The notes under the pieces: generated by a model
The model's input: only the letters and a program-made list of their open reading frames with translations
Databases searched by the model: none
Told to the model about the DNA's origin: nothing
Program-made: the position numbers and the translations under genes
From: Blakeslea trispora
Lineage: Eukaryota > Mucoromycota > Mucoromycetes > Mucorales > Choanephoraceae
Reading direction: 5' to 3'
Length of the DNA: 64,000 nucleotides
NCBI GenBank assembly: GCA_025331445.1
Contig: JAIWNE010000027.1
Coordinates: forward strand, 124,001-188,000
In this document: positions 40,910 to 57,411 of the stretch, piece by piece
How the letters are laid out: every line of letters begins with the position of its first letter
How positions within the stretch are numbered: position 1 is the first letter of the stretch

Positions 40910-43900
40910 TCAATAACGGTGGGCCCAATAGGAAGCAGAAGCGATAGCCGTATCTTGTTTCTCTCTTTCCAACTAAATGAAATTATGAGATTTAATGATA
41001 ATGAAAAAAAAAAAGCTGTTGTTTTTTACCTCGAGTTGGATTTGTTTGTGAATCATGCAAAGATAATCTACATAACTCATCTGTTGAAGCACCTCATCTT
41101 CTATTAAAGTATTTGCCAGCGCAACTTCAAGATCAATACTATGACGAATAATGTGAACAGAAGGCAAATAAGCAAGATGGTTGGTGGAGTGGTGGTATAG
41201 CTCTTTTAGTTTTTGACTAACAGCCTCTTGAAGGAACAAGGCGTGGCCCAGTTGAGGATTGATCTTGTCTCTTTCAGACACGCCAAGCAACTCTTTTGCG
41301 AGGTGATCTGCATATTTGCCTATCCAAATAAAGATATCATGATGGCTTTGAATCCAATAGACACCATGAGGATTCAAACGATTATAGGAGAGACGCTCGA
41401 GATAAGGTTGCTGGCTAAAGTAAGCGTCCAGTGAAATACAGCGGGGGTATAGCCAGCGAATCGTATCAGGAATGCTTAAAGCTTTCATTTTGCGCATATT
41501 GTAAACACGGGTATCCACAGAAATAGAGGCATCTATGATAAGAATTCGAATAAATCTAAGCTTGCTGAAGCAGATCATCAATCACTCAATTTTTTTTTTT
41601 TTTTACCTTTTCTCAAAACAACAGACTTCTTGAAAGAGGAAAGCAAAATAGGTAAAGCTTTGAAAGATTCTGGTAAAATCAATTGTGCTGGAGAAGCATC
41701 ACTAGCACAGTATCTACGGTAGGCAGTCAGGATTTTGACACATAATGTGTCGAGTTCATTAGAGAGATCATTCAATGATTTCTTGGCAGATAGAGTCATG
41801 GTACGCTTAATCAAAAAGTTCATAAAAGTATCAAGGTCAGCATGTTTGAATACCGGATTAGCTGATCCTCCAACAGACAGACTGAGATTATGCACACGCA
41901 CTCGGCGCTGTCCTTCCATCGTTGTATAAAGTAATGCACATTGGAAATAGACAGGCGTACCCTCAGATAGTTTGCTGCCTTCATGCTTTATAGATAGACC
42001 AAGGGAAGTGTCTGCATTTATACCGGCCAATTCGATATCGGTAGCATTACTCATATGGAAATTACCATACTGATCGTCTACCATGAGCCCTATCCATCAA
42101 GAATCTATTAGAGTCATAAAAAGTATAAAGAAAGCGAATATGTTTACCGTTAGAGCAACGAACACGAAGTGCTCCTCTATAGCCTTGCTTTCGTGTGATA
42201 GAATGTAACAAATTATGTTCCAGTTGAGCACCATCCTTTAGAGGATTGAATTGAGGGAAATAGTGAGTGTCTCCACCCGTAATGGAAGACAACACGCCCA
42301 AGGTGGCTGTGTCCATATAGGTGTTGGGAGGAGGAAATAGCCAGACATCAGCTGAGATGCCATGTTGAGCATATTCTGTAGCCAGTTGTGTGTAATATTT
42401 TTCTTGAGGAGCAAACAGTCCCTTTTCTCGCTCGGTACCATATAGCTTAGGATCATCTCGCTCTTTTAATGCACCAGGTCCTACAGTAGGTAGACAAGTT
42501 TGCATCAATGATACTTTGCCTCCAGTTGTTTTCTATAAAAAAAAACCTAATTCAGTCTCTCCTCATACACACTCTTTATTGTTTCTTACCATAGCTTCAA
42601 GCACAGCTTGAGCAGCAGCTCCAAATGCGGCTTGAGGTACAACAGTATGCTGGTGCAAAGATAGTAATTGATCAAGCAATCCTTCAATTGTTTGTCTTTA
42701 AATCAAGTCAGAACATGTAATGTCTGCTGTAAAACTATCCTACCTTGACTCCGTAGGATCGACAAAAAATCCTTCTGACATAGGCACAAAAACGTCTTGA
42801 AGATCAGAAACAACCATCATGGAAGCTTGGCTCTGGCCGGCCTAAACACGAGCTCTTTTAAATCATGATGGCCTTCACTACAGATAAGATAGCAAATCTT
42901 ACCTTTATGTTATAAAAATGAAGACTGGTATCAAATGTCATGATGCCTATTTTGACATAAGCTGGCAAACCAACACTCAACAGGTGCTTGACTGAATTGC
43001 AAACAGCTCTCAGCATGCCTGACTCAATTGCCATTCGAGAGACATCGATAGCCAATAGCCAATGCATTGCTGTAGGCGTAATACCTCCATGATACTCTTC
43101 CGGTACCTCAAACTCTACCGAGCCATACATCAACTCGGGGCGTTGCTCTGTATCCATGCGTCTGCCATTCATATCGCAAGGGCAGAATTGCGATTCATCC
43201 ACTACGTTTTCAAACTCACAAAGATTACAAATAAATCGTCTGCCGCCTGATGTAAACCGACACCAAGGGTTGATATAACCTTTACAACGAGTACATCTTA
43301 CTAAATTGGAGACAGGTACAACTGGTGTTTCCTCTGGTTGGCTTGCCAAAGGTTGAATGATCAATCCTAATGAAAGTCCTGTATCTCGTATCATCTGATG
43401 ATCCTGAGGAACTGTTTGCAAGGTAGATCGAATGAATCGAGGATCAGAGTTACCTTGATCCAGAGCACGGAAAGAAGTACTAGCCAGAGGAAGAGGTTGA
43501 TCTGTGTTACATGTGCCATAATAGTACTCGGGATTAGCATACAGATCCTCATCCTTTTGTTGAACTTGAACGGGAGAAGGGATCTGGTTGGGATCAATTC
43601 GGGGTTTAGCTGTGGATCGAGGAGGTAGGCCCAAAGGTGTATGCTGAGCAACATCTTGATTCAATGGCTGTGGGTGCATTGGCTGCTGTTGCATTGGCTG
43701 CTGTTGCATTGGCTGCTGTTGCATTGGCTGTGGTTGCATTGGCTGTGGTTGCATTGGCTGTGGTTGCATTGGCTGTGGGTGTAAATTCTGAATAGGTTGT
43801 GGTCGCTGCTGCGATGATTGAAGTGCAGGTGAAGACATAGGTGTGCTTTGGCTGGATAAATGATCAGGCAGTGGAGCATAAACTCGTTTGGGTTTAGTTG

Positions 43901-44255
43901 ATTTCTATGAAATAAACAAAGTCAGCACTAAATCATTTTTTTTTTTTGTGCATAATCAACTTACAAAGCTACTACTTGATTGAATCTGCATTTGAGCCAT
44001 CTGCTCAACAGGTGGTCTAGCTATTGAATTTATAAGTTTTGAGCTGCTTTTGTTTCTAAGGACATTCAACTTACTTGCATTAGGTGGTGTGAATGCAGGT
44101 CGAACGAGAGGCGGCCTGAACTGACCTGCAGGACTTGGTTGGCCTGGATGTAATTGAGTTGGCTGTGATGGTGGTCGATGAAGAGGTCTTGCATCAGGCT
44201 GACCCAAGGGCCTAACAGGACGGAATGGGGGTGGTCTAGGCTGCGATGTCGACAT
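40910..44255 (-). CDS. Sec24-family COPII cargo adaptor
   Basis: Eight exons (44255-43965, 43904-42903, 42841-42744, 42695-42590, 42532-42148, 42089-41607, 41532-41030, 40972-40910) give 976 aa. The N-terminal 200 residues are Pro/Gln-rich and include eight units of a 15-nt repeat (MQPQP/MQQQP). The zinc finger has Cys at 301, 304, 323 and 326. The trunk follows (MHWLLAIDVS), then the beta-sandwich and helical parts, and a gelsolin-like end (SHHDIFIWIGKYADHLAKELLG). Sec24 binds cargo in the COPII coat at ER exit sites with Sec23 and Sar1. Within exon 1 a 54-nt stretch has perfect intron signals but no stop and a length divisible by three; if removed, the protein has 958 aa. Which paralog it is cannot be told. 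Confidence 0.93.
43662..43781 (-). repeat. 15-nt coding minisatellite in the Sec24 gene, 8 units
   Basis: Eight head-to-tail 15-nt units of the type CATTGGCTGTGGTTG, three of them with CTGCTG in place of CTGTGG, encode Pro/Gln/Met repeats. All units keep frame. It lies in the disordered N-terminus, so length changes should be tolerated. Confidence 0.9.
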
Positions 44256-44893
44256 GATGACACGCTTTTTCTTTGTTGAACAAGGAAGAAATAAAGAGAG
44301 AGAATGGTTGTTTTCTTTTTTATTTTGTGCAGTTACCACTGTCACTTGGATTTTTTTTTCATGTAGCACACTTTTCTCGAAACAAATTGGTGAAACAGCA
44401 AAACTAGCTTTGTTTGGTTGATTTGCCATCTATTGACATACGGCAACTGCTCATTTGCTTTTTAGCAGATCAAGAGACAATGTGAAACAACCAGTGCTAG
44501 TAACTCAAAAGACTGTGCTTAGTCATGAAAGTTTGACAGGCTGTGAATTGATTTGCATATAAGCTTAAACCTATGTCTTTACGAACTCTCTTTTTTTTTA
44601 GCATGTAGAAAGGATGAAAATTATGACAACGCCTATATGAATGAAGGTTCTTGATTTTTTGGGATATTGTACCTAAACAAGGCAAATATAAATGGCAAGT
44701 AAGCGTATTTCAGGAACCTCTCTAAGTCAATGAAATGGCTCTATTTTCGACAGGTATATCCCATTTTGCTACTTTTTTTTTAAAACAATAAGATTATAAA
44801 CGCATAAATATTTGCTTTTTTTTTATAGGAATTCATTCCCTGATTCAAATGCCTTTTTTTTTTTTCTTTTTTTGGTATCAGCCCTTATTGATT
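44256..44893. other. Intergenic region between Sec24 and Hel2-like genes
   Basis: Promoter space for the Sec24-family gene on the left and 3' flank of the Hel2-like gene on the right. AT-rich with several T8-T11 runs. No gene seen. Confidence 0.5.
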
Positions 44894-47117
44894 TTATAAG
44901 CCTACTCTAAACAAGACTTTGTTTTTGCGTCCCTTTTTCTTTTTGTTATCATTCACATCTTCCTGTTGTTGAGGTGGAGGAGATTCGTTTGTGCTGCTTC
45001 CCCAAGCACTACCATTAGCTTGCTTGTTTTGTCTCATATTCAAAATGGCATTATGTTTTGGTGCTGCAGCAGGTAACGAAGGGAATAATTGTGGTTTCAA
45101 GCTAGGGAAATCACTTTTTGATTGCTTTTCGGGCGATTTTTGACCGCCTACCCAGGATGTATTAGAAAGCAAAGGAGAACTGGGGCGCGAGGTTTGAGGC
45201 GAACTAGGAATGGAGGATCGAGGTGAGCTAGGGACTGAGGATTGAGGTGTTTTAGAAGATGTAGCCACAGAAGCAGCTGTAGCCACTTTATCCCATACAT
45301 TGCTGGCTGATTTTTTCTTCTGGCCTACGACTGTTTTCTTGGGTTGTGGTTTAATGACAAGTACACGAGAGGTAGTTTGCTTTGGTTTCTCTTTTGTCTC
45401 TAATGCAGGGAAATTGGAAAGCTTCAAACAATATAAGAAGTCATTTCATTTTCTTGTACTTTGACAAAATACAACTTACTGCCGTCTGCTTGTTTCTCCA
45501 AACACGCACTAGCTCAGACTTCTTTTCGTCTATGTCCAACAACCCTTCAACGCCCTTGATGATTTTGGCGGTATTTTGTACATGTTGATTCGTCAAAAGA
45601 TAGATCTGGTTCACATAATCTTGACACGATATGTTGCTCTTCCGGTAAGCAGATGTCAGAGATCGAAATTCTTGGACCTTTGCCTTACTCTGTAACATAT
45701 TGCCTACTTTGCCTATGAAATCCGTATGTAATGCAACTGTATCTAAATCGTGTTGGTTCTCGGGTGGTGCAGATGATGAAGCATTTACAAAAGGAGGGGT
45801 AACAGCTGCCTCTGAAAGACTACCAAATCCAGCAGGCTTCTGAATAGCTTTACCCTTACCCTTCTTTGTACTGGCACCAGGCACGGTACGAACTGGCTTG
45901 GCTGATTCCTTTTGTTGCTGGTTATTACTGCTGCTACCAGAGGAGATGGAAGAAGAACTGGCAATGCGAGGGAAAGCATCCAACGAATGAGAAGGAGGGG
46001 TGGCAGGCTGTTCCTCTCTTTTCTTGCCTTTCTTACGTTGATCTCGATAGGATTCGTATTGGAAATTGACTTCTAGTTGCCTTGATTGAGATTGAAGCGA
46101 GCGCTGAAGCCCGCTAATGGATTCACCATGAACTTCCACTTCGTGTGCCTTTAAATCGATTGAAGTCTCAAACACGACAAACTTTTTCTCTAAGCAAGAC
46201 GGGTAAGGGCAAATAGCATGATCTGATTTAAAATGATCCTCTAAACTGGCATAGTTGGCATAATATTCATCACGATTTCCATTTCTGACACAGATGAAAC
46301 ATTGCTCATGCTGGTCCCGACAATGAACAAACAGTTCGTCTCCACCATAGAAACGGGTCTTACAGAATGAACATTCGGGATGGCCCGAAAATCCGGTCTC
46401 ATCTTCCTTGTTGAAATCTTTGTCACCTTCTCGGTAATGTTTTGTCAGTTGAGATGATGTGTACAGGTATTGTTCAGAAGGAAATACTTTTTTGTGTCGA
46501 CAACAAAGGTCACTGAAATAAAGAAAGAGTGAGCTGAGTATACGAGAAAAAAAAAGGATGTTTCCATTGTTACCAAAGATTCAATTCATGAACTTTTCTG
46601 ACATGTAACTTGAGCTCTGTCAAATCACTGGCGGTTTCTCGACATCCTTTTTGATATGGGCAATTATAATCAAGCAAGTGCATTGTTTCATCATACATCG
46701 CCTGTGTTTCAAACTTGATGTTTAACTTTTTATCTACAAAAGGTGTATCGTTCGTTGTGTACTGATCAAATGGCTTGTCGGCATCTTTTGTTAACAGAAT
46801 CCATTTTTGGTCAGCCTATATAGACAAGATATTCGTGCTGGTCAAAGAAAAAGTATAGAAGCACAACTTTTTTTAACTACCTTACAATAAGCACAATTAC
46901 GTGTTTTATATAAAGCTCGAAGTCGAAGTGTACATTTATGACAAGTACGATGATCACATTCGGACACTGCAAAGATCGAAACAGGCTCAGTACAAATAAA
47001 ACAGAGATCGCCTTCTTCTTCTTCGTTTTCTTCAGAAGATCGCGACTGGTCTTGCTGCTTGTTTTGCTTCTGCTCTCTGCGTTTGTTTTTATTGGCTTTG
47101 GATATATCAAGAGCCAT
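44894..47117 (-). CDS. Hel2/ZNF598-type RING E3 ubiquitin ligase (ribosome quality control)
   Basis: Four exons (47117-46881, 46815-46574, 46512-45480, 45421-44894) give about 679 aa. A Lys/Gln/Glu-rich start precedes the RING (residues about 38-79; LCFICTEPVSIFAVSECDHR...CAYCK). An array of C2H2-like fingers follows: YNCPYQKGCRETASDLTELK, FCKTRFYGGDELFVHCRDQH, QCFICVRNGNRDEYYANY and LEDHFKSDHAICPYPSC. A disordered C-terminal half contains Ser-Pro repeats, a helical domain (TDFIGKVGNMLQSKAKVQEF) and a basic end. This order is diagnostic for ZNF598/Hel2, which ubiquitinates small-subunit ribosomal proteins on collided ribosomes. The length fits yeast Hel2 (639 aa). Confidence 0.93.
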
Positions 47118-48609
47118 ACTTTTTTTTAAAAAAGTTTTGTTGAAATAAACAAGTTCTACTTTTGGGTTTTTTTTTATATAGCTGAACAATGTTAAATTTG
47201 GACTCCCTGATTGGACAACATTGAGTTTTCTTTGTCGATCTGTAAAGACAGTCAAAGCCAACGCTTTACTACATTTGGTTTGCTATAGCAATCAACAACC
47301 TAAGCTTTAGTAGGCAGACTTTTCTATGTATCTTGATAGAATAGTAACTCTTGCTGTCGTCATTGGATATTCACCCATTGGAAGGCCACTTGCTCTTGTT
47401 CTTTTGGTTGATTGATAGTCTATATTTGATGCGTTGAGGCAAATAAAGGCACCTCAAAGGAGAAGAACTTGTTAATTCACAAATGGTTTCTTTGATTGTG
47501 TCCCATTCAAGCTGTACAAATTTATCTCAACAACTGTTCTATTGTTAGATTGCGACGCAAGCTATGTTTGTACGTTACCAAGAATAAACCAAATAAAACA
47601 TGTGTGGATCTTTCATCTATAGCTCTTTTTGGTATAAAAACTAGCACAGTCTTCATAATTGAACATCAGTCTTTATTATCAAGTCAAAACACACACACAC
47701 AAGTGCACTACTCAATAAATGCTTATCTAGTACTTTTGTATTGATCGAAATGCAATTAAGCTCTAACAATGACAACAAGACTAATTGAAAGATCAAACAA
47801 GCTACAAAAGAAGCAACACTGTAAATAAGATCATCCTCTAAAAAATTCTTACTACATCAAGCTTTCAAATTAAAGTCAATGAACAGAATTAGATTCAATT
47901 ACTAAATAACATTGTTCACCAAAACAAATTGTATAATGAATAATGAGATCAAAGGAAATGAGTCCATTTGTTTAGTTTAAGATGTAAATAAACGTGACAT
48001 ATAATAATTTATAGAGAAGTATACAAATAACGCTTGAAATGATAGGTAATGAAACTGCGCTTCTCTTCTTTACCCTCCATTTTTCTATACAAAATAGAAT
48101 GTTTACAAGCATTCTCAAAGCACTATTTTTGCCTGTCCCTATTTTCTTTTTATAAATCATTGCAGCATCAAAACAACACGATGATGAATGAATTGTGATC
48201 CTACAAAAAAATATGAGGGCTATGAATGCAATAAGCGAGAGAAGCACAATGAGCATATAAATATCATATGCTTGTAATGCTTAATTGTGAAGTTTATAAT
48301 TTACTAGGGCTACTAATAAAATACCAAGTTAAATTCGAGATACTTTCATCTAATCAATTGCGAATGTTTTTGTAGTTCTAGTTATTAAATCGCTTGTCTC
48401 TTTATAATTGTTAGCTCTCTACTAACATTGTAAACGTATATGTATATGTAGATCAAGCAGAATGTCAAACTGGAAAATGTTATGCTTGACTAACATCGCT
48501 AATTCTTGAAAAATTAAAAAAATATCCCGGTCAATTCCGGTAATTTTCCGGTCCGGACTTGTTAATTTGACAAGTAATATTGTACACAGCGGTTGACAAA
48601 AATAACAGT
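47118..48609. other. Intergenic region up to the retrotransposon array
   Basis: No gene seen. A cluster of CCGG sites (about 48525-48558) stands out by composition just before the first tRNA fragment at 48610. The stretch next to 48609 is probably the original 5' flank of the tRNA-Val gene before the retrotransposons inserted. Confidence 0.5.
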
Positions 48610-48624
48610 GGTTTCTTGGTGTAG
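48610..48624 (+). repeat. Target-site duplication 1 (tRNA-Val nt 1-15)
   Basis: GGTTTCTTGGTGTAG is identical to nucleotides 1-15 of the tRNA-Val gene at 55792. It marks the left junction of the truncated retrotransposon copy and sits where the original tRNA gene began. Confidence 0.9.
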
Positions 48625-50406
48625 GCAAAAGAGTTTATTTAATAATGACTTGTAAGACTGATCCCTATGGGGCAAGTGTCTAATCATAAGGGCAAGCTAA
48701 AATAAGGATTATTCTAACTGGATCAAAAGGAACAAAAAAATAAACTAGCAGAATAGAAAAAAAGGAAAAAGAAACCAAGAGAGACAATAAAAAATAAATA
48801 GAGAGAGAGCAAAAAAGGGAATCAGACTACACTAAGGTAGTTGTAAAGAGTAGAAGTAACAGGAGGAGCAACTTGTTTGTAAAAGACAGGAAGCAACCAT
48901 TCCAAGAGAGTGAGACCACGGATATCCTGAGAACAGGGACTGAACTCGACATCGGGTAGGCAGATCATGTCCATGTCCAGCATAATTGAGCAGATGGTAG
49001 GCCACCAAGTGGACCAACGCAAAAGAGAGACAGAATGACGCTGGTCATTGGGAGAAGGAGCGGAGGGAAGTCGAGGGAGTTGGTTCAGCACAAAATCCAA
49101 AGGATTTGTCTGAGCATCAACAGCAACACCAAGACGAGAAGCAACAGAGAGACAAGAGAGCAAATGGTTCCGTGAGGCATGTGGATGACCACAACGACAG
49201 GGAACAGGACGAGCAGGTAACCAACCCATCTTCCAACGAAGAAGACGACTACGTTCCCAAACGGACATTGGCAGCACCAGGATGGGATCAACACCCAGCA
49301 CAGGACGACAAGCACGCAAGAGAACCAGACCATCAGGTTTGGCCAAAAGGCCAGCCAGGTAAGCACGACGATAACGCCTAATGACAGGCTTGGGATCACC
49401 ACCAGAGGTAGCAATCCACTGCTGCAAGGAAGAGAAGCGAGGCACAGAGGGAGAGACAAAAGAGTGACAGACCAGTTTCCACAGGGAGTTGTTCTTTAAC
49501 AGCTTTGGCCAACGGAAACGAGGAGAAACAGAGGCAGAGGCAATGTGGGCAAGCAAGACAGCGAGCAAAGTATCAGCAGGAAGCTGTTGCATATGCACCA
49601 ACATTTTAAACCCCAGAATGGAGACACGCTCCTTCATGCAAGGCAAGTGGGTCAGGTGTTTAAACACCACTGTTGAAGCCTTAGAGTGTCCACCAAAGGC
49701 AAGACGAAGACACTGATCTTGAGCACGCTCAATAACCCGGAGGTCACGAACCAAGAGAGAAGAGACAGCAAGACCATACTCTAGCTTTGGCCGGATGAAG
49801 GTGGCATACAGCCGAGCAGAGGTCAAACGAGAGAAGCCAGTCGAGTGAACACCCAAAGGTTGAAGACCAGAGCGCATGGCCACCAAGGCAGAACGAGCGT
49901 TGCGTTGAACAAGGAGAGTAGCATCCAGTTGAGCTTTGCTATTGAAGGGCAAGCCCAAATAGTCAAAAGACTCGGCAACAGGAAGAGCAGTACCATACAG
50001 GCGTAAAGGAGTAGTACGACCAGTATACAGCGGCGGGTTCACCACCACACACTTGGCCGGGTTCCACCGATACCCAAGAGACAGAGAGTGTTCTTCAGCT
50101 TTCTTCAACAAGCGGGGCATGGTCTCAGCAGTGCCGATCAAGACAACATCGTCAGCATAGAGTAGTGAGTTGATCCAGAGGCCATCATATAGACGTTGAG
50201 GCATGGATCCAAACACACGAGAGCGAGGCATTGAGATGGATCGTAGAGCAGCAGGGAACGAGTTAATGTACACAGAGTACAAGTAGGGAGACAAGATCGA
50301 ACCTTGCAAGACACCAGTACCAGGCCAGAAAGAAGGAGAACGAGCACCAGAGACCAGTACCTCAACTTGCACATCGTCAAAAAGACAACGCAGCAAGCCA
50401 AGAAGA
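48625..50406 (-). mobile_element. 5'-truncated copy of the tRNA-Val-targeted non-LTR retrotransposon
   Basis: This 1782-bp copy matches the 3' third of the full-length element at 50422-55791. It starts within the reverse transcriptase and runs through the complete 3' UTR. The truncation shares two bases (GG) with the adjoining target duplication, typical of microhomology-joined 5' ends in target-primed reverse transcription. Its first 1114 bp (48625-49738) show no difference from the full-length copy, while 49739-50406 has 22 substitutions. It lies between two tRNA-derived duplications. Confidence 0.93.
48822..50406 (-). pseudogene. ORF2 fragment (reverse transcriptase C-terminal half) of copy 1
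   Basis: An open frame from the truncation to the normal ORF2 stop, about 528 residues. It retains the LLYADDVVLIG catalytic box and the C-terminal Cys-His motif but lacks the endonuclease and the first RT blocks, so it cannot move on its own. It differs from copy 2 by four residues visible in the first 150 or so. An internal Met near the left end of RT could start translation by chance. Confidence 0.9.
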
Positions 50407-50421
50407 GGTTTCTTGGTGTAG
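50407..50421 (+). repeat. Target-site duplication 2 (tRNA-Val nt 1-15)
   Basis: A second GGTTTCTTGGTGTAG, lying exactly between the truncated and full-length copies. It is the right duplication of the first insertion and the left duplication of the second. Confidence 0.9.
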
Positions 50422-50618
50422 GCAAAAGAGTTTATTTAATAATGACTTGTAAGACTGATCCCTATGGGGCAAGTGTCTAATCATAAGGGCAAGCTAAAAT
50501 AAGGATTATTCTAACTGGATCAAAAGGAACAAAAAAATAAACTAGCAGAATAGAAAAAAAGGAAAAAGAAACCAAGAGAGACAATAAAAAATAAATAGAG
50601 AGAGAGCAAAAAAGGGAA

Positions 50619-53600
50619 TCAGACTACACTAAGGTAGTTGTAAAGAGTAGAAGTAACAGGAGGAGCAACTTGTTTGTAAAAGACAGGAAGCAACCATTCC
50701 AAGAGAGTGAGACCACGGATATCCTGAGAACAGGGACTGAACTCGACATCGGGTAGGCAGATCATGTCCATGTCCAGCATAATTGAGCAGATGGTAGGCC
50801 ACCAAGTGGACCAACGCAAAAGAGAGACAGAATGACGCTGGTCATTGGGAGAAGGAGCGGAGGGAAGTCGAGGGAGTTGGTTCAGCACAAAATCCAAAGG
50901 ATTTGTCTGAGCATCAACAGCAACACCAAGACGAGAAGCAACAGAGAGACAAGAGAGCAAATGGTTCCGTGAGGCATGTGGATGACCACAACGACAGGGA
51001 ACAGGACGAGCAGGTAACCAACCCATCTTCCAACGAAGAAGACGACTACGTTCCCAAACGGACATTGGCAGCACCAGGATGGGATCAACACCCAGCACAG
51101 GACGACAAGCACGCAAGAGAACCAGACCATCAGGTTTGGCCAAAAGGCCAGCCAGGTAAGCACGACGATAACGCCTAATGACAGGCTTGGGATCACCACC
51201 AGAGGTAGCAATCCACTGCTGCAAGGAAGAGAAGCGAGGCACAGAGGGAGAGACAAAAGAGTGACAGACCAGTTTCCACAGGGAGTTGTTCTTTAACAGC
51301 TTTGGCCAACGGAAACGAGGAGAAACAGAGGCAGAGGCAATGTGGGCAAGCAAGACAGCGAGCAAAGTATCAGCAGGAAGCTGTTGCATATGCACCAACA
51401 TTTTAAACCCCAGAATGGAGACACGCTCCTTCATGCAAGGCAAGTGGGTCAGGTGTTTAAACACCACTGTTGAAGCCTTAGAGTGTCCACCAAAGGCAAG
51501 ACGAAGACACTGATCTTGAGCACGCTCAATAACCCGAAGGTCACGAACTAAGAGAGAAGAGATAGCAAGACCATATTCTAGCTTGGGCCGGATGAAGGTG
51601 GCATACAGCCGAGCAGAGGTCAGACGAGAGAAGCCAGTCGAGTGAACACCCAAAGGTTGAAGACCAGAGCGCATGGCCACCAAGGCAGAACGAGCGTTGC
51701 GCTGGACAAGGAGAGTAGCATCCAGTTGAGCTTTGCTATTAAAGGGCAAGCCCAAATAGTCAAAAGACTCGGCAACAGGAAGAGCAGTACCATACAGGCG
51801 TAAAGGAGTAGTACGACCAGTATACAGCGGTGGGTTTACCACCACACACTTGGCCGGGTTCCACCGATACCCAAGAGACAGAGAGTGTTCTTCAGCTTTC
51901 TTCAACAAGCGGGGCATGGTCTCAGCAGTACCGATCAAGACAACATCGTCAGCATAGAGCAGTGAGTTGATCCAGAGGCCATCATACAGACGTTGAGGCA
52001 TGGATCCAAACACACGAGAGCGAGGCATTGAGATGGACCGCAGGACGGCAGGGAACGAGTTAATGTACACAGAGTACAAGTAGGGAGACAAGATCGAACC
52101 TTGCAAGACACCAGTACCAGGCCAGAGAGAAGGAGAACGAGCACCAGAGACCAGTACCTCAACTTGCACATTGTCAAAAAGACAACGCAGCAGGCCAAGA
52201 AGAGGATCAGAGACATAAGTCTCAAGAGCACGCCAGACAATGTTACGATCAACACTATCGTATGCTTGCTTAATGTCCAAGAAACAAAGGACAGGAGGTT
52301 CACCAAAGTGATCATCAGCGTGCTGACGACACAACTCATGCAAAGACAGAGCCTGGTCAAGAGTACTACGATGAGCGCGAAAGCCACCTTGAACGATATC
52401 CAGAGGAGGACCAGATTCCAAGAGCTCAGGATACACGCACAACTCCAGCAACTTACGCATGACCGAAGTCAAGCTAATGGGCCGGTAGTTGGCTGCACTC
52501 AGAGGATCACCCTTCTTGTAAATGGGCACGACCTGGGCAGTACACCAATCGCGAGGGATTCGAGACCAGAACCAGCAAAGAGAGAAGAGCAAGACCAAGA
52601 GAGGAGACAAGTCATCGACAATGGGCAATAGCATCTCGGTTCTCAGATGATCAACACCCGGAGCTTTACGACGAGAGAGCTTCTTTAAGAGAGTGTCAGA
52701 CACTAACTCGACCGTAAAGGGACAGTCCTTATCAGCAGCAGTAGTAGCACCAACAGGAAGGGAGAAAGACAAGTCAAGACCAAACTGGTTCTGAAGATAC
52801 CTAGCGGTATCAACCGAGACACAAGGACCAGAAGGCAAAGGGGGAGCAGTAGGCCGGAGAGCAGGCAGGTGATCACCAGCAAAGACAGACCGAAGATGAC
52901 TTGACATCACCGTAGCAGCAACAGCAGGACCTTCAGGATGCGAGAACCCAGGAGAGGTAGTACGACCACGCCGTAACCGCTTGATGGTGGCAGTAGTGTC
53001 AGAGAAAGGACCAGAAGAGAGCTTGTCACAGAACTGCTTCCATGTTTCACGCCTACGACGCTTGAGCTCAGCATTGAACCGGTCACAAGAAGAGAGATAC
53101 GCACGCCACAGAACAGCCTTACCAACGCCGTCAGAAGCTCGTCGCCAAGCTCTTCGGGCGTCCTCACGAGCATCCACAAGAGACTGCAGAGAGCAAGTCC
53201 AGAACCAGGTGTTACCAGGAGGTCGTGGCTGTTTGCGACCAACAGACTCATCGAGGCAACGGTGGATGGTATCAGTGAGGCTACTAGCAATAGAATCAAC
53301 ATCAGGGATAACCCTTTCAGTTGGGAGAGTTGCGTGAGTAGAGGTACGACTGCTATGTTGCCCGAAGGCTTGACAAATAGAATACTTAACTTCTGCCAAG
53401 AGTGTATTTTTGATAGGTGCGCTATGCAACCTGAAAAGAGACTGATACAGCTCTACACTCTTGTGATCATCCAGACAAGACAGTTTCCATAAAAGACGCG
53501 GATGAGCAACTGGAGCAGGAGGTAGAGAAGACAGAGAACAAGACAGAGAGACAGGAACATGGTCAGAACCAAGGCCGGCATCACGGACAACAAGAGAAGG

Positions 53601-54293
53601 AGCAACCAGATCATCAAAGCTGATAAAGAGATCAATTACGCTACTCCAACTGGAGTGACCAGGCTGAGAGTTAGCCATGCGACTTTGAGAGAACAGAGTT
53701 GGAACACCTTTTGCCAAGAGAGAGTTCCAACAGAAAAGACCAGCTTCCTCAACCCATTCGGCCAGACGAGTACCACGAGTGTTACTTCGAGAGTCACCAA
53801 GAAGAGGAACACTACGCGCATTCAAATCGCCACAGATGAATGCGTTGGTCTGAGAGGCATGAGTACGAGAAGGGAGAGACATAATGAGAGACATAAACTC
53901 ATCATCGGACAGAGAAGGAGGGGCATAGACACAATGAATGAGAAAGGTAGAGACTTGACAAGAAAAGACATAAGGAGAGGAAGAAAGGAGAGGAGTAACT
54001 GGGTAAGGACAAGTAGGATTGACCAAAAGAGAGATACCCATCTTGCCACGGAAAGAGTCAGCAACAGGTTGACCATAGGTATGATACTGTTGCCAAGAGG
54101 TGGGAAAACGAAGAGGAGAGAGTAGCCAAGTCTCGGTGATGAAGATGAGGGAAGAGTCATATAAGTAGTCAGTAACAGTACTAATGGCTTGACGAGCAAT
54201 ACCATTAGCATTCCATATAGTCATAGTAAAGTCATAGGTAGAAGGAGAGGAAGGGGGCATAGGTTCATAAGAAGGCATAGGATTGGTACTCAT
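50619..54293 (-). CDS. Retrotransposon ORF2: AP endonuclease plus reverse transcriptase
   Basis: A 1224-aa protein. Residues about 20-250 form an APE-type endonuclease (MTIWNANGIAR, FITETWLL, FICGDLNARS, GLGSDHVPVSL), which would nick the target. Residues about 540-830 form the reverse transcriptase: VVPIYKKGDPLSAANYRPIS, GFRAHRSTLDQAL, FLDIKQAYDSVDR, GVLQGSILSPYLYS and LLYADDVVLIG (active site near 780). A Cys-His motif near residue 1100 (CRCGHPHASRNHLLSC) is typical of the C-terminus of L1-like ORF2. I see no RNase H domain. The start ATG overlaps the ORF1 stop as TAATG, suggesting translation by termination-reinitiation. The endonuclease could account for the site preference in tRNA-Val. 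Confidence 0.95.
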   Translation of the reverse strand: MSTNPMPSYEPMPPSSPSTYDFTMTIWNANGIARQAISTVTDYLYDSSLIFITETWLLSPLRFPTSWQQYHTYGQPVADSFRGKMGISLLVNPTCPYPVTPLLSSSPYVFSCQVSTFLIHCVYAPPSLSDDEFMSLIMSLPSRTHASQTNAFICGDLNARSVPLLGDSRSNTRGTRLAEWVEEAGLFCWNSLLAKGVPTLFSQSRMANSQPGHSSWSSVIDLFISFDDLVAPSLVVRDAGLGSDHVPVSLSCSLSSLPPAPVAHPRLLWKLSCLDDHKSVELYQSLFRLHSAPIKNTLLAEVKYSICQAFGQHSSRTSTHATLPTERVIPDVDSIASSLTDTIHRCLDESVGRKQPRPPGNTWFWTCSLQSLVDAREDARRAWRRASDGVGKAVLWRAYLSSCDRFNAELKRRRRETWKQFCDKLSSGPFSDTTATIKRLRRGRTTSPGFSHPEGPAVAATVMSSHLRSVFAGDHLPALRPTAPPLPSGPCVSVDTARYLQNQFGLDLSFSLPVGATTAADKDCPFTVELVSDTLLKKLSRRKAPGVDHLRTEMLLPIVDDLSPLLVLLFSLCWFWSRIPRDWCTAQVVPIYKKGDPLSAANYRPISLTSVMRKLLELCVYPELLESGPPLDIVQGGFRAHRSTLDQALSLHELCRQHADDHFGEPPVLCFLDIKQAYDSVDRNIVWRALETYVSDPLLGLLRCLFDNVQVEVLVSGARSPSLWPGTGVLQGSILSPYLYSVYINSFPAVLRSISMPRSRVFGSMPQRLYDGLWINSLLYADDVVLIGTAETMPRLLKKAEEHSLSLGYRWNPAKCVVVNPPLYTGRTTPLRLYGTALPVAESFDYLGLPFNSKAQLDATLLVQRNARSALVAMRSGLQPLGVHSTGFSRLTSARLYATFIRPKLEYGLAISSLLVRDLRVIERAQDQCLRLAFGGHSKASTVVFKHLTHLPCMKERVSILGFKMLVHMQQLPADTLLAVLLAHIASASVSPRFRWPKLLKNNSLWKLVCHSFVSPSVPRFSSLQQWIATSGGDPKPVIRRYRRAYLAGLLAKPDGLVLLRACRPVLGVDPILVLPMSVWERSRLLRWKMGWLPARPVPCRCGHPHASRNHLLSCLSVASRLGVAVDAQTNPLDFVLNQLPRLPSAPSPNDQRHSVSLLRWSTWWPTICSIMLDMDMICLPDVEFSPCSQDIRGLTLLEWLLPVFYKQVAPPVTSTLYNYLSVV

Positions 54294-55708
54294 TAAGAGG
54301 ATGAGACCGGTTCACCGTCACCGGCCAAGGCAATTTCCATATCAGTAGAGGGAGCAGAGTCAACACCAACTACAGAAGAGAGAGGACCAACTACAGTACC
54401 AGCCTGTTCCTTTGACAACCAACCTTGACGGACAAAGTCGTAGGCCACCAGTCTACGCGTTTGTTCACGAACATAGCCAAGAGCACGAAGAAGACGAGCT
54501 TGTTGCAGTTCACGAGCCTTGGCAGTGAGAGCATCGGCATCCAGAGAGGCAAAAGCAGGATCAAAGACATTGGATCCAGAGAAAGGATCAAAGTCTGTCA
54601 AGACCGGGAGAGAATACTTGTCCATGACCTTAAGAAGATCAGCCTTGTAAGCAGTGTGAATGAGCAAAGCTACAACGTTACGAGCTGGGTAGTGCACATC
54701 AAGGACACGGCTGTTATCCAATCCGATAAGTCGCAGCTTATGACGGAAAGCAGAGAGACGGTCCCGATACTTGTTTGGCAAGTAAACATACTCAAAGAGA
54801 GGTGAGTCTACTGAAGAGCCAGCCGGAGAAGAAACAAGAAAGATACGAGCAGCGGCCTTACGTTGGCGAGGCGTGATCTTTTTCTTGGGCTTGGCCTGAA
54901 CAGCCAAAGAGGAAACCGACTTGTTGGACTTACCATAGGCCTCAGCAGGTGTAGGAGCAGCAGCAGCAACATGAGCCCATTTAGACACGGCGGCCGAAGG
55001 AGAGACAGAAGGAGCAGGCAAGGAAGAAGGAAGCAAGTCATCATCCATTGCTACATCAACAGACGGGGACAAAGAGAGAGAAGGACCAGACTTGTTCTCA
55101 AGTTCCAAGATCTTGGCACGAGCAGCGGCAAGCTCTTTCTTGAGTGCCGAGTTCTCAGCAACAAGAGACTCCAACTGAGAGAGACGCTCTTCATACTTTT
55201 CAAACTTGGCCTGAAAAGCAGCAAACCAAGCAGGAGGAGCAGAGGAAGAGGGAGAGGCCGACGAGAGCAAAGAAACATTACTTACCTCTGGCAAAGAATC
55301 AGCACCAGAGAGAGAAGGAGCAACAGAGAGACCAAAGTCAAAGACAACGTCTTTGTTCAGCTCAAGTGGAGCAGATGTCGAAGAGATGCTGACGTCATCA
55401 ACTCGAGATCTCGGCAAGGTACGCGTCATGTCGGCAGGGATCAAAGGCGGCGAAAGTGAACTATGCAAGCGCTTACCGGAGAGACTTGAAACTTTAATAG
55501 GTGATGTTTCTAATACAGAGATAGATTCTGACAAAGTTTCAGCTGGTTCTGATGCTAGGTTCTTTGTAGATGAGGCTTCGAAGTCGAGATCTTTAGTTGA
55601 AGATGTCGAAATGTCGTGAATCGCGTTGGTGAATGTGCTAGAGTTGTCGGATTGGGACACTTTGGGTACCAAAATGTGCGGACGAGATTGGGGAATGATA
55701 ATTGACAA
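54293..55708 (-). CDS. Retrotransposon ORF1: coiled-coil RNA-binding-type protein
   Basis: A 471-aa protein preceding ORF2. A Ser-rich disordered N-terminus leads to a coiled coil at residues about 165-210 (FEKYEERLSQLESLVAENSA and following), expected to drive trimer or multimer assembly. A basic patch (AKPKKKITPRQRKAAARIF) is followed by a folded part with VYLPNKYRDRLSAFRHKLRL and VVALLIHTAYKADLL that may form an RRM-like RNA-binding fold. No Cys-His zinc knuckle is present, unlike ORF1 of many fungal LINEs. Its role would be to package element RNA as a ribonucleoprotein. The assignment rests on position and coiled coil rather than sequence identity. Confidence 0.8.
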   Translation of the reverse strand: MSIIIPQSRPHILVPKVSQSDNSSTFTNAIHDISTSSTKDLDFEASSTKNLASEPAETLSESISVLETSPIKVSSLSGKRLHSSLSPPLIPADMTRTLPRSRVDDVSISSTSAPLELNKDVVFDFGLSVAPSLSGADSLPEVSNVSLLSSASPSSSAPPAWFAAFQAKFEKYEERLSQLESLVAENSALKKELAAARAKILELENKSGPSLSLSPSVDVAMDDDLLPSSLPAPSVSPSAAVSKWAHVAAAAPTPAEAYGKSNKSVSSLAVQAKPKKKITPRQRKAAARIFLVSSPAGSSVDSPLFEYVYLPNKYRDRLSAFRHKLRLIGLDNSRVLDVHYPARNVVALLIHTAYKADLLKVMDKYSLPVLTDFDPFSGSNVFDPAFASLDADALTAKARELQQARLLRALGYVREQTRRLVAYDFVRQGWLSKEQAGTVVGPLSSVVGVDSAPSTDMEIALAGDGEPVSSS

Positions 55709-55791
55709 AGAAATACGCTGGTTAATAAGGAGAAAGTCGAGCTTTTTTCGAAAACGGAGTTTGAATTAAAAAAAGGTGATCAAAAGGAGAA

Positions 55792-55857
55792 GGTTTCTTG
55801 GTGTAGTTGGTTATCACGTCTGCTTAACACGCAGACGGTCGCCAGTTCGAGTCTGGC

Positions 55858-55865
<8 letters not shown>
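55792..55865 (+). tRNA. tRNA-Val (anticodon AAC)
   Basis: The cloverleaf is complete. The acceptor stem pairs GGTTTCT with AGAAATC (one G-U), with discriminator A. The anticodon stem TCTGC/GCAGA encloses TTAACAC, giving AAC at 55826-55828. The T arm pairs GCCAG with CTGGC around TTCGAGT. No intron is present. Box A overlaps the retrotransposon cut site after nt 15, and box B is intact. A 49-nt T run follows, far longer than a Pol III terminator needs. The gene survives because each insertion duplicated its first 15 nt. Confidence 0.95.

Positions 55866-55914
<49 letters not shown>
55866..55914 (+). terminator. T49 run, Pol III terminator of the tRNA (expanded)
   Basis: Forty-nine consecutive T residues directly follow the tRNA discriminator base. 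Four or five would be enough to stop RNA polymerase III. Read on the other strand it is an A49 tail on the adjacent tandem repeat, so it may instead be the poly(A) end of an inserted retro-sequence. Confidence 0.7.
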
Positions 55915-56187
55915 CATTTCTATGTTTTCGTGAGACGTTTCTATTTCATTAGCCTTTTGGTTCACTTACATTCAGTACTTCGCTTCTTCTTTTTTTTTTT
56001 TTTTTTTCATTTCTATGTTTTCGTGAGACGTTTCTATTTCATTAGCCTTTTGGCTCACTTACATTCAGTACTTCGCTTCTTCTTTTCTTTTTCATTTCTA
56101 TGTTTTCGTGAGACGTTTCTATTTCATTAGCCTTTTGGTTCACTTACATTCAGTACTTCGCTTCTTCTTTTCTTTTTCATTTCTACC
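55915..56187. repeat. Tandem repeat, three units of 85-93 bp
   Basis: Units start at 55915, 56008 and 56093, each beginning CATTTCTATGTTTTCGTGAG and containing CATTAGCCTTTTGG and CAGTACTTCGCTTCTTCTTT. The length difference comes from the T tract at the end of unit 1. Only one base (GGT/GGC) varies in the body. A 10-nt partial fourth unit follows. On the minus strand each unit ends in an A-rich tail. Confidence 0.9.
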
Positions 56188-57411
56188 AGTGTTACAGGAC
56201 AAAGGATAATTTTTGCAGTAACTTGAGAAAGAGAACAAATAGATTTAACAGAGCAATCAGTCAGCAAGGTCATAAGTAATGAGCACCAGGTTTTAAGTCG
56301 TCCGACTAGAGATATAAGTAAAGTAAAGAGAATAAAGTAATATAAAAGAAGAGATGTAATATATGAATACAATGATCTGTAATAAGTATCAAGGGAACTA
56401 ACAACAATATGTGGATTTAGGTAGTGAATATGTCAAACTACAACCAAGCGTAAAGTAAATAAGAGAAATGTAAGTTGAGTTTATTAATAAGAGAAGATTA
56501 AAGAGTTTATATACTATTCTAAAAGAAGTCATGTTGGACTTGCAGACTAATAATTTAAACAGTCAAGTTAATGAGTCATCATGTATGGATTATTAATACA
56601 TGTCTAATAGTTCTATTCATTATGATATGGAAAGTCAGAGAAGGATTCTAATAAGGTTGTTGTGTAATAAGAGATCAAGAGGAGCTGTCAAATGAGTAAA
56701 ATACCAAATAGGAAATACAGAGATGGATTCAAAGAAGTCGAAAGATAATTGTGTACTAGTAAAACTCCTGTGCGCAACAATAATATAAAGAAATCAAACT
56801 GAAGAGGACCAATTGCCTGCAATAAGCACTAGGCTATAAGTTGTCTAACTACAGCAAATAAGATAAGACAAATAGAATTCAGAGACAAGTCAATTAATTG
56901 TAGAGTTACAACTATTTCAAAGCAGGCTTCAATAATCCAAACACAAAGACATCAAAGTTGCAAGATATATTGAAGCTAGTTAGATTCAAAAGAATGGGCT
57001 ATCTCAAAGATATACCAAATGTTTCAACTACTTGTATTTATGTCACTCATCATTGCTCTTTGACAAAAGCAGATACATTAATGTACTGTATTTGACAGCA
57101 AACACAACATACAACCAGCTTTTCAGGTCATAATGTCTCTAGCTTACTTATTTCTGGAAACCAAGCAAGTAAACGAAGAGTGATAACAAAGTTCAATTCA
57201 AAGTCCTGATCTTCACTGATTGATATTTAAAATATGATTAAACTGTTTTATTTAGAAAGGAATTAGTTATGTTTGGAAGGACTGTGTGTAAAGAGTGTTA
57301 TTAAGCGAAATCGTATTATTGCTTCTCTCTTTCTTTCCTAATGCAGAAAGGAGAAAGTAAGGTACATAAAGGGTAATCAATTATACAGTGTAGAAATCAT
57401 GCTCTTGTGTT
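56188..57411. other. Intergenic region, no supported gene
   Basis: AT-rich with many short purine-rich stretches (AATAAG, AAGAGA) but no open frame with protein-like composition. It could contain old element debris; I recognise none. Confidence 0.45.

Follow-up and report, generated by a model that had tools for sequence, protein, structure and literature searches.

A LINE inserted within tRNA genes of the fungus Blakeslea trispora, and related families at other tRNA genes

The window analysed here is a stretch of 64,000 nucleotides (nt) from the mucoralean fungus Blakeslea trispora (contig JAIWNE010000027.1, positions 124,001 to 188,000). It holds two tandem copies of a non-LTR (long terminal repeat) retrotransposon, or long interspersed nuclear element (LINE), which appears to insert itself within tRNA genes and to leave a whole gene behind. 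The sequence GGTTTCTTGGTGTAG, the start of tRNA-Val(AAC), occurs at window positions 48610, 50407 and 55792 (172610, 174407 and 179792 of the contig, called C190 below), and only at the last of these does it open a whole tRNA gene. Between the three sites lie two minus-strand copies of one LINE with an identical 3' end. This is the arrangement described in an earlier note on this DNA (three 15-nt tRNA-Val starts bracketing a truncated and a full-length LINE), with which both coordinates and alignment agree. The features are as follows:

48610–48624, plus strand: distal duplicate of tRNA-Val nt 1–15 (nt 1–14 plus G), at the 3' junction of the truncated LINE
48625–50406, minus strand: 5'-truncated LINE copy, the element's 3' third, 98.8% identical to the full copy
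48822–50396, minus strand: open remainder of open reading frame (ORF) 2 within the truncated copy
50407–50421, plus strand: second duplicate of tRNA-Val nt 1–15, separating the two LINE copies
50422–55791, minus strand: full-length LINE copy, 5,370 nt
50619–54293, minus strand: ORF2, 1224 amino acids (aa), with an apurinic/apyrimidinic-type (APE) endonuclease, a reverse transcriptase (RT) and a C-terminal Cys/His motif
54293–55708, minus strand: ORF1, at most 471 aa counted from a TTG (putative start)
55792–55865, plus strand: intact tRNA-Val(AAC) gene, whose 5' flank is the 5' end of the LINE

The 5' junction of the truncated copy is ambiguous by 2 nt (its end lies at 50406 or 50408), GG being common to LINE and tRNA. 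Compared with the full-length window copy, several other full-length copies carry 8 extra nt (AGAAAGGC) before the tRNA. As the whole tRNA stands on the element's 5' side, with the full copy adjoining it, the truncated copy is probably the older of the two. Tandem near-identical copies are also prone to unequal recombination and to assembly error, either of which might have produced the repeats without two insertions; elsewhere in the genome, one copy has discordant ends (C27) and another locus an inverted pair of the LINE 5' part (C256:133567–138918, possibly an assembly artefact). Such an origin is nevertheless very improbable for the window, where the truncated copy begins at a 5' end of its own and diverges by 1.2%; moreover, other loci have another tandem stack (C112) and probably one more (C104, which includes a 60-nt fragment), and the same junction is found in single copies.

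Judged by its domains, the element is a non-LTR retrotransposon of the APE type. Indeed, one ORF combines RT and an APE-like endonuclease, ORF2 matching the Pfam families PF00078 (E = 6.6e-21), PF14529 (E = 1.5e-11) and, just under the cut-off, PF03372 (E = 5.5e-5). The motifs WNANG, ITETW, GDLNA, SDH and YADD (the last at residue 780) are found in ORF2, together with a C-terminal Cys/His motif at residue 1100. A restriction-like endonuclease of the NeSL kind, sought by Pfam only, was not found, the domain returned being APE. The RT part resembles R2 and L1 proteins, too broadly to place the clade, and the endonuclease part has no sequence match in the PDB up to E = 10. ORF1 and ORF2 overlap as TAATG. 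ORF1 has no Pfam match, and from its single-sequence structure model (mean pLDDT, the predicted local confidence score, 43.7) we retain only one predicted long helix, residues 160–206. Besides target duplications, the family includes 5'-truncated copies (C190, C60, C73 and C213), which fit target-primed reverse transcription. No 5' ribozyme of the R2 kind was detected by Rfam up to E = 1 in 48500–56300, where the only matches were the tRNA and a SNORD100 below its gathering score.

We then consider the element across the genome (37.2 Mb in 285 contigs, to which the C-numbers refer). A DNA search with its 3' 479 nt found at least 22 regions plus one 60-nt fragment, here called family 1; C11 (unrelated), the 60-nt second match in C104 and C149 (3' end lost) were left out of the junction count. 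The exact 3' end AATAAACTCTTTTGC, which the earlier note proposed as a probe, occurs at 16 sites, 15 of them element ends and the other the unrelated C11. Positions within tRNAs are numbered so that nt 14 is the A before R15, ARAGORN beginning some genes (e.g. Asp, Phe, Met) one base earlier. Of 22 3' junctions, 21 were readable, and in 15 of these the flank is identical to nt 1–14 of one of the tRNA genes compared (Val 10, Asp 4, Gln 1); with C282, which differs from tRNA-Val by one mismatch, the totals become Val 11, Asp 4 and Gln 1. All Val, Asp and Gln genes used for comparison had been fetched beside element copies, so that a match means that the first bases of a complete tRNA gene recur in the 3' flank. 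As background, the window (one strand, element excluded) gives 56,715 14-mers; not one of them comes as close as one mismatch to any tRNA compared, two mismatches or fewer being enough for 6 and three or fewer for 75. The LINE is antisense to the tRNA.

The expectation that every junction would be tRNA-Val nt 1–15 therefore has to be widened: the insertions are tRNA-specific rather than random (16/21), and tRNA-Val is the target in 11 of 21, with Asp and Gln junctions just as exact, which rules out targeting of Val only. These same junctions bear on whether the tRNA piece could belong to the element, as a mobile tRNA carried by the LINE, as the prevalence of Val in 3' flanks (11/21) might suggest. 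This seems scarcely credible, since near-identical elements bear Val, Asp or Gln pieces, and the outer flanks (upstream of the piece and downstream of the tRNA) differ between most loci, C69 and C188 excepted. Beside family 1, two copies of a variant ending GCGAAAGATTTTTTATT (L070 and L071, C97) also follow tRNA-Val nt 1–15 and are absent from the ORF2 search list; at C24:350947 (L069), what comes after tRNA-Val nt 1–15 is different sequence (GGTCAACAAAGC), which may belong to another element.

Eighteen 5' ends were read, several ambiguous by 1–2 nt common to element and tRNA, and 12 adjoin an intact tRNA at nt 1: Val in eight (C190, C69, C112, C25, C26, C27, C149 and C256, C149 being the copy whose 3' end is lost), Asp in three (C19, C60 and C7) and Gln in one (C277). 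Two more, in the tandem copies of C190 and C112, adjoin the duplicated nt 1–15. C73 begins at tRNA-like sequence, and at C213 a tRNA-His starts just downstream of the nick. Among the 15 copies with both ends read, the same target stands on both sides in 11 (C73 included), and about 12 nt are in common at C213. At the tRNA junctions, the element's 3' end joins tRNA nt 14 (plus G) and its 5' end joins tRNA nt 1.

A protein search of the same genome returned ORF2 relatives at 37–49% identity, plus older family-1 copies. The RTs of these related families are about 50% identical, and the same type of junction was found in other tRNAs:

— Family 2 has 16 exact 3' ends by pattern search (the reversed control pattern gave 2), 15 of them preceded by GCTCAG. 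Ten match a tRNA exactly (Lys-CTT 4, Phe 2, Tyr 1, Thr-AGT 1, Thr-TGT 1, Cys 1) and C62 with one mismatch. The rest comprise two GCTCGTT targets for which no gene is in hand, C140 and C279, which resemble Phe and Tyr with an indel, and C139, cut by a repeat. C231, whose 3' end is one base shorter and which is hence outside the 16, has Tyr on both sides. The 5' sides of C124, C13, C9, C231, C279, C239 and C280 were fetched, and all but C280 adjoin a tRNA (6/7), of the same isotype as the 3' flank in five cases and in C279 also if an indel is allowed.

— Family 3 has both of its 3' ends in tRNA, namely Phe (C280) and Met (C271, with Met on the 5' side too).

— Family 4 follows tRNA-Gly(GCC) nt 1–14 at C36, found by the protein search, and at C21, C29 and C79, found with a pattern holding the target letters, so that these copies give no rate. 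The native tRNA-Gly(GCC) start occurs at 8 places, of which the 2 read were both called tRNA-Gly(GCC). C21 has a tRNA-Gly at a distance of 4.9 kb, with non-matching sequence upstream of it, and for C36 no tRNA was found in 44,900–46,000 or 43,900–44,950, on its 5' side.

A further relative (L076, C144:7800–8720, 657–771) ends inside a 5S rRNA gene (RF00001, E = 2.9e-5), its 5' side being N, and the target sequence of another (C2) was not recognised. In an unrooted RT tree of 11 sequences, families 2 and 3 are joined with a support of 99 and C36 joins them with 94, while family 1, C2 and C144 stand apart (C144 node, 60); tRNA targeting is thus either old in the group or arose more than once. 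At L074 (C280) and L096 (C140), a 5' end like that of families 2 and 3 (AAAAGCGAAAGAAAAGT) lies upstream of a duplicated tRNA-Phe start, which suggests tandem stacking in family 2 too.

The position of the nick can be read where the native nt 15 is not G. At the C277 locus itself, tRNA-Gln has A as nt 15, yet TGTA-G stands at the 3' junction (1/1). For Lys(CTT), nt 15 is A in the 9 genes seen and the exact junctions read CTCA-G in 4/4, the tRNA of the own locus having been read for one of these four copies. Because the junction G replaces the native A15 in all five cases, the nick probably falls after A14, the G coming from the element itself. The cut proposed in the earlier note, inside box A after nt 15, is accordingly kept within box A, and its placement after nt 15 was dropped.

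From the junctions, that is, from directly observed positions, duplication of nt 1–14, antisense orientation, a whole tRNA on the 5' side and stacking, we infer a site-specific APE-type LINE that would use box A of tRNA genes as the site of its target-primed reverse transcription, a reading to which we give a probability of about 0.9. The ORF2 endonuclease would nick the sense strand of the tRNA after A14, a base that we take to be invariant. The freed 3'-OH would then serve as primer on an element RNA with ...CC at its end, the second strand would be cut about 14 bp upstream, at the mature tRNA 5' end, and repair would duplicate nt 1–14. Since the duplication covers everything 5' of the nick, the gene would be rebuilt and become available for a further insertion, which would account for tandem stacks such as the one in the window. 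The same target position recurs from locus to locus: 16 of 21 family-1 and 11 of 16 family-2 junctions agree with a tRNA start, one mismatch being allowed.

Specificity would come at least partly from box A. In family 1 the motif is T-R-R-T-R-T-A^R (Val, Asp, Gln); in family 2 it is T-R-G-C-T-C-A^R (Lys, Phe, Tyr, Thr, Cys), family 3 (Phe, Met) being of the same class; in family 4 it is TGGTTAA (Gly-GCC). The tRNA loci tell a similar story from the other side. At least 57 tRNA genes were reported, and the best-scoring 30 (L023–L052), none of them Val, Asp or Gln, were read. By eye, from the flanks, a LINE 5' end adjoins nt 1 in six of these (L033, L035, L036, L038, L043 and L046). All six have a GCTCA box A (6/17 versus 0/13 of the others; Fisher one-sided p = 0.021, for a split picked after the junctions had been seen).

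Several observations weigh against so uniform a mechanism. Five of the 21 family-1 junctions lack an exact or one-mismatch tRNA start: C73 sits in tRNA-like sequence that ARAGORN does not call and that has 4 mismatches to the nearest tRNA in hand; at C213 the nick is 3 nt upstream of tRNA-His and the duplication is about 12 nt; C27 has tRNA-Val at its 5' end and ACAACAAATGTAG at its 3' end; C278 adjoins a CACTACAC repeat on its 5' side; and C239 holds a family-1 copy inside another repeat. The 5' end of C270 is without a tRNA and, like that of C278, meets other DNA; the two ends disagree in C27, C270 and C278, among the 15 copies with both ends read. C69 and C188 have flanks in common and may be one locus. 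The box A of tRNA-His has TAGTATAG like that of Asp, yet no insertion was seen there. Families 3 and 4 have a native G15, which makes a nick after nt 14 indistinguishable from one after nt 15, so that A14 is resolved in families 1 and 2 only. Lastly, at C29 (family 4), with tRNA-Gly on the 5' side, the duplication is about 23 nt, and the second cut is thus not always at nt 1.

Some of these cases could point instead to the RNA polymerase III (Pol III) machinery, the LINE docking on TFIIIB or TFIIIC, as is thought for TRE5-A, with the box A motif secondary. Other repeats do keep particular distances to tRNA genes (one with its end, GGTGTAGTG, between −55 and −58 in 6/30 loci, a second starting 38–139 bp downstream in 18/30), the odd C213 copy lies 3 nt from tRNA-His though outside box A, and the TRE5 ORF1 protein is described as interacting with TFIIIB (PMC5911963). 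However, pure docking would predict all tRNAs and looser spacing, whereas families 1 and 2 were each seen in only one kind of box A, with single-base precision, and C27, C213 and C239 keep TGTA at or beside the junction outside box A. We therefore regard docking as unlikely, though not negligibly so, and keep box A as at least part of the element's specificity.

More tentatively, and at somewhat less than even odds, at least four related LINE families may divide the tRNA genes by box A sequence, all nicking after A14 and rebuilding the gene each time, so that the genes can receive insertions repeatedly; the 5' ends of the elements may be shaped as a working Pol III leader for the rebuilt tRNA, and a further relative may have moved to the 5S rRNA gene. 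Two points lowered our confidence in this joint proposal: the family-4 copies at C21, C29 and C79 came from a search with the target letters, and only in families 1 and 2 do the junctions place the nick after A14. In any case, the multi-family, box-A-sorted pattern exceeds what the earlier note saw.

Insertion that restores a tRNA gene is familiar from the tyrosine-recombinase islands of bacteria, which use another enzyme and usually the tRNA 3' end. R1- and Tx1-clade LINEs take rRNA, snRNA (small nuclear RNA) and 5S genes and telomeric repeats as targets. They differ in these targets from the present element. Like it, they are site-specific for multicopy sequences and APE-type (the latter per PMC4640811). 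That same paper shows that the earlier note's claim of novelty was too wide, since tRNA-specific LINEs and tandem stacking (Utopia, U2) were already published (PMC4640811). Indeed, it reports NeSL-1_TV (tRNA-Pro), LIN15_SM (tRNA-Arg) and LIN25_SM (tRNA-Glu) as LINEs specific to tRNA genes; by their descriptions there, these are set apart as NeSL-related, grouped with restriction-like endonucleases and using one tRNA each, whereas the present element is of APE type with several isotypes per family. Utopia is likewise a site-specific LINE, occasionally tandem in its target gene, and differs in its U2 snRNA target and restriction-like endonuclease (PMC4640811). The dictyostelid TRE5, TRE3 and NLTR-A/B are further LINEs that, in compact genomes, are associated with tRNA genes, and TRE5-A has an APE domain; they sit beside the gene (approx. 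50 bp upstream, 40–150 bp downstream and 2–6 bp upstream) and not inside it after nt 14 (PMC5006619, PMC5911963). Dada elements target box A (nt 8–13, e.g. TAGCTC then AG) of many tRNAs, with lineages sorted by tRNA, but are DNA transposons that duplicate nt 8–13, in contrast to the RT element and nt 1–14 duplication found here (PMC8869645). A Dada insertion would presumably leave the tRNA split. LINEs specific to tRNA genes are as such already known; an APE-type, box-A-sorted, tRNA-rebuilding set was not found in our searches of the open-access literature, preprints excluded.

Genes for tRNAs are essential and numerous, and the best-known retroelements at such genes sit beside them. Cutting inside the promoter and coding part while leaving a whole gene would explain both the persistence of this LINE and its tandem stacking. 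Families with differing box A preferences on a common scaffold would also form a natural series on how an APE endonuclease reads DNA, useful for targeted insertion by target-primed reverse transcription.

Other repeats accompany these tRNA genes. The repeat ending GGTGTAGTG, 55–58 bp upstream of tRNA nt 1 at L026, L032, L039, L044, L045 and L052, is possibly another tRNA-linked mobile element. The downstream repeat, recognised by GGACAAAGGATAGT (at most 2 mismatches), runs in the window from about 56185; it often has an LTR-like TGTTA at its start, and a 22-mer of it has 70 exact genome copies. Directly after the window tRNA, positions 55866–56182 hold a T-run and a unit repeated three times in tandem, at spacings of 93 and 85 bp. 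In keeping with a fungus, perhaps one of the Mucoromycota, the window also encodes domains of the Zn2Cys6 (fungal) and Mcp5 PH kinds, and the genome has 13 CotH matches.

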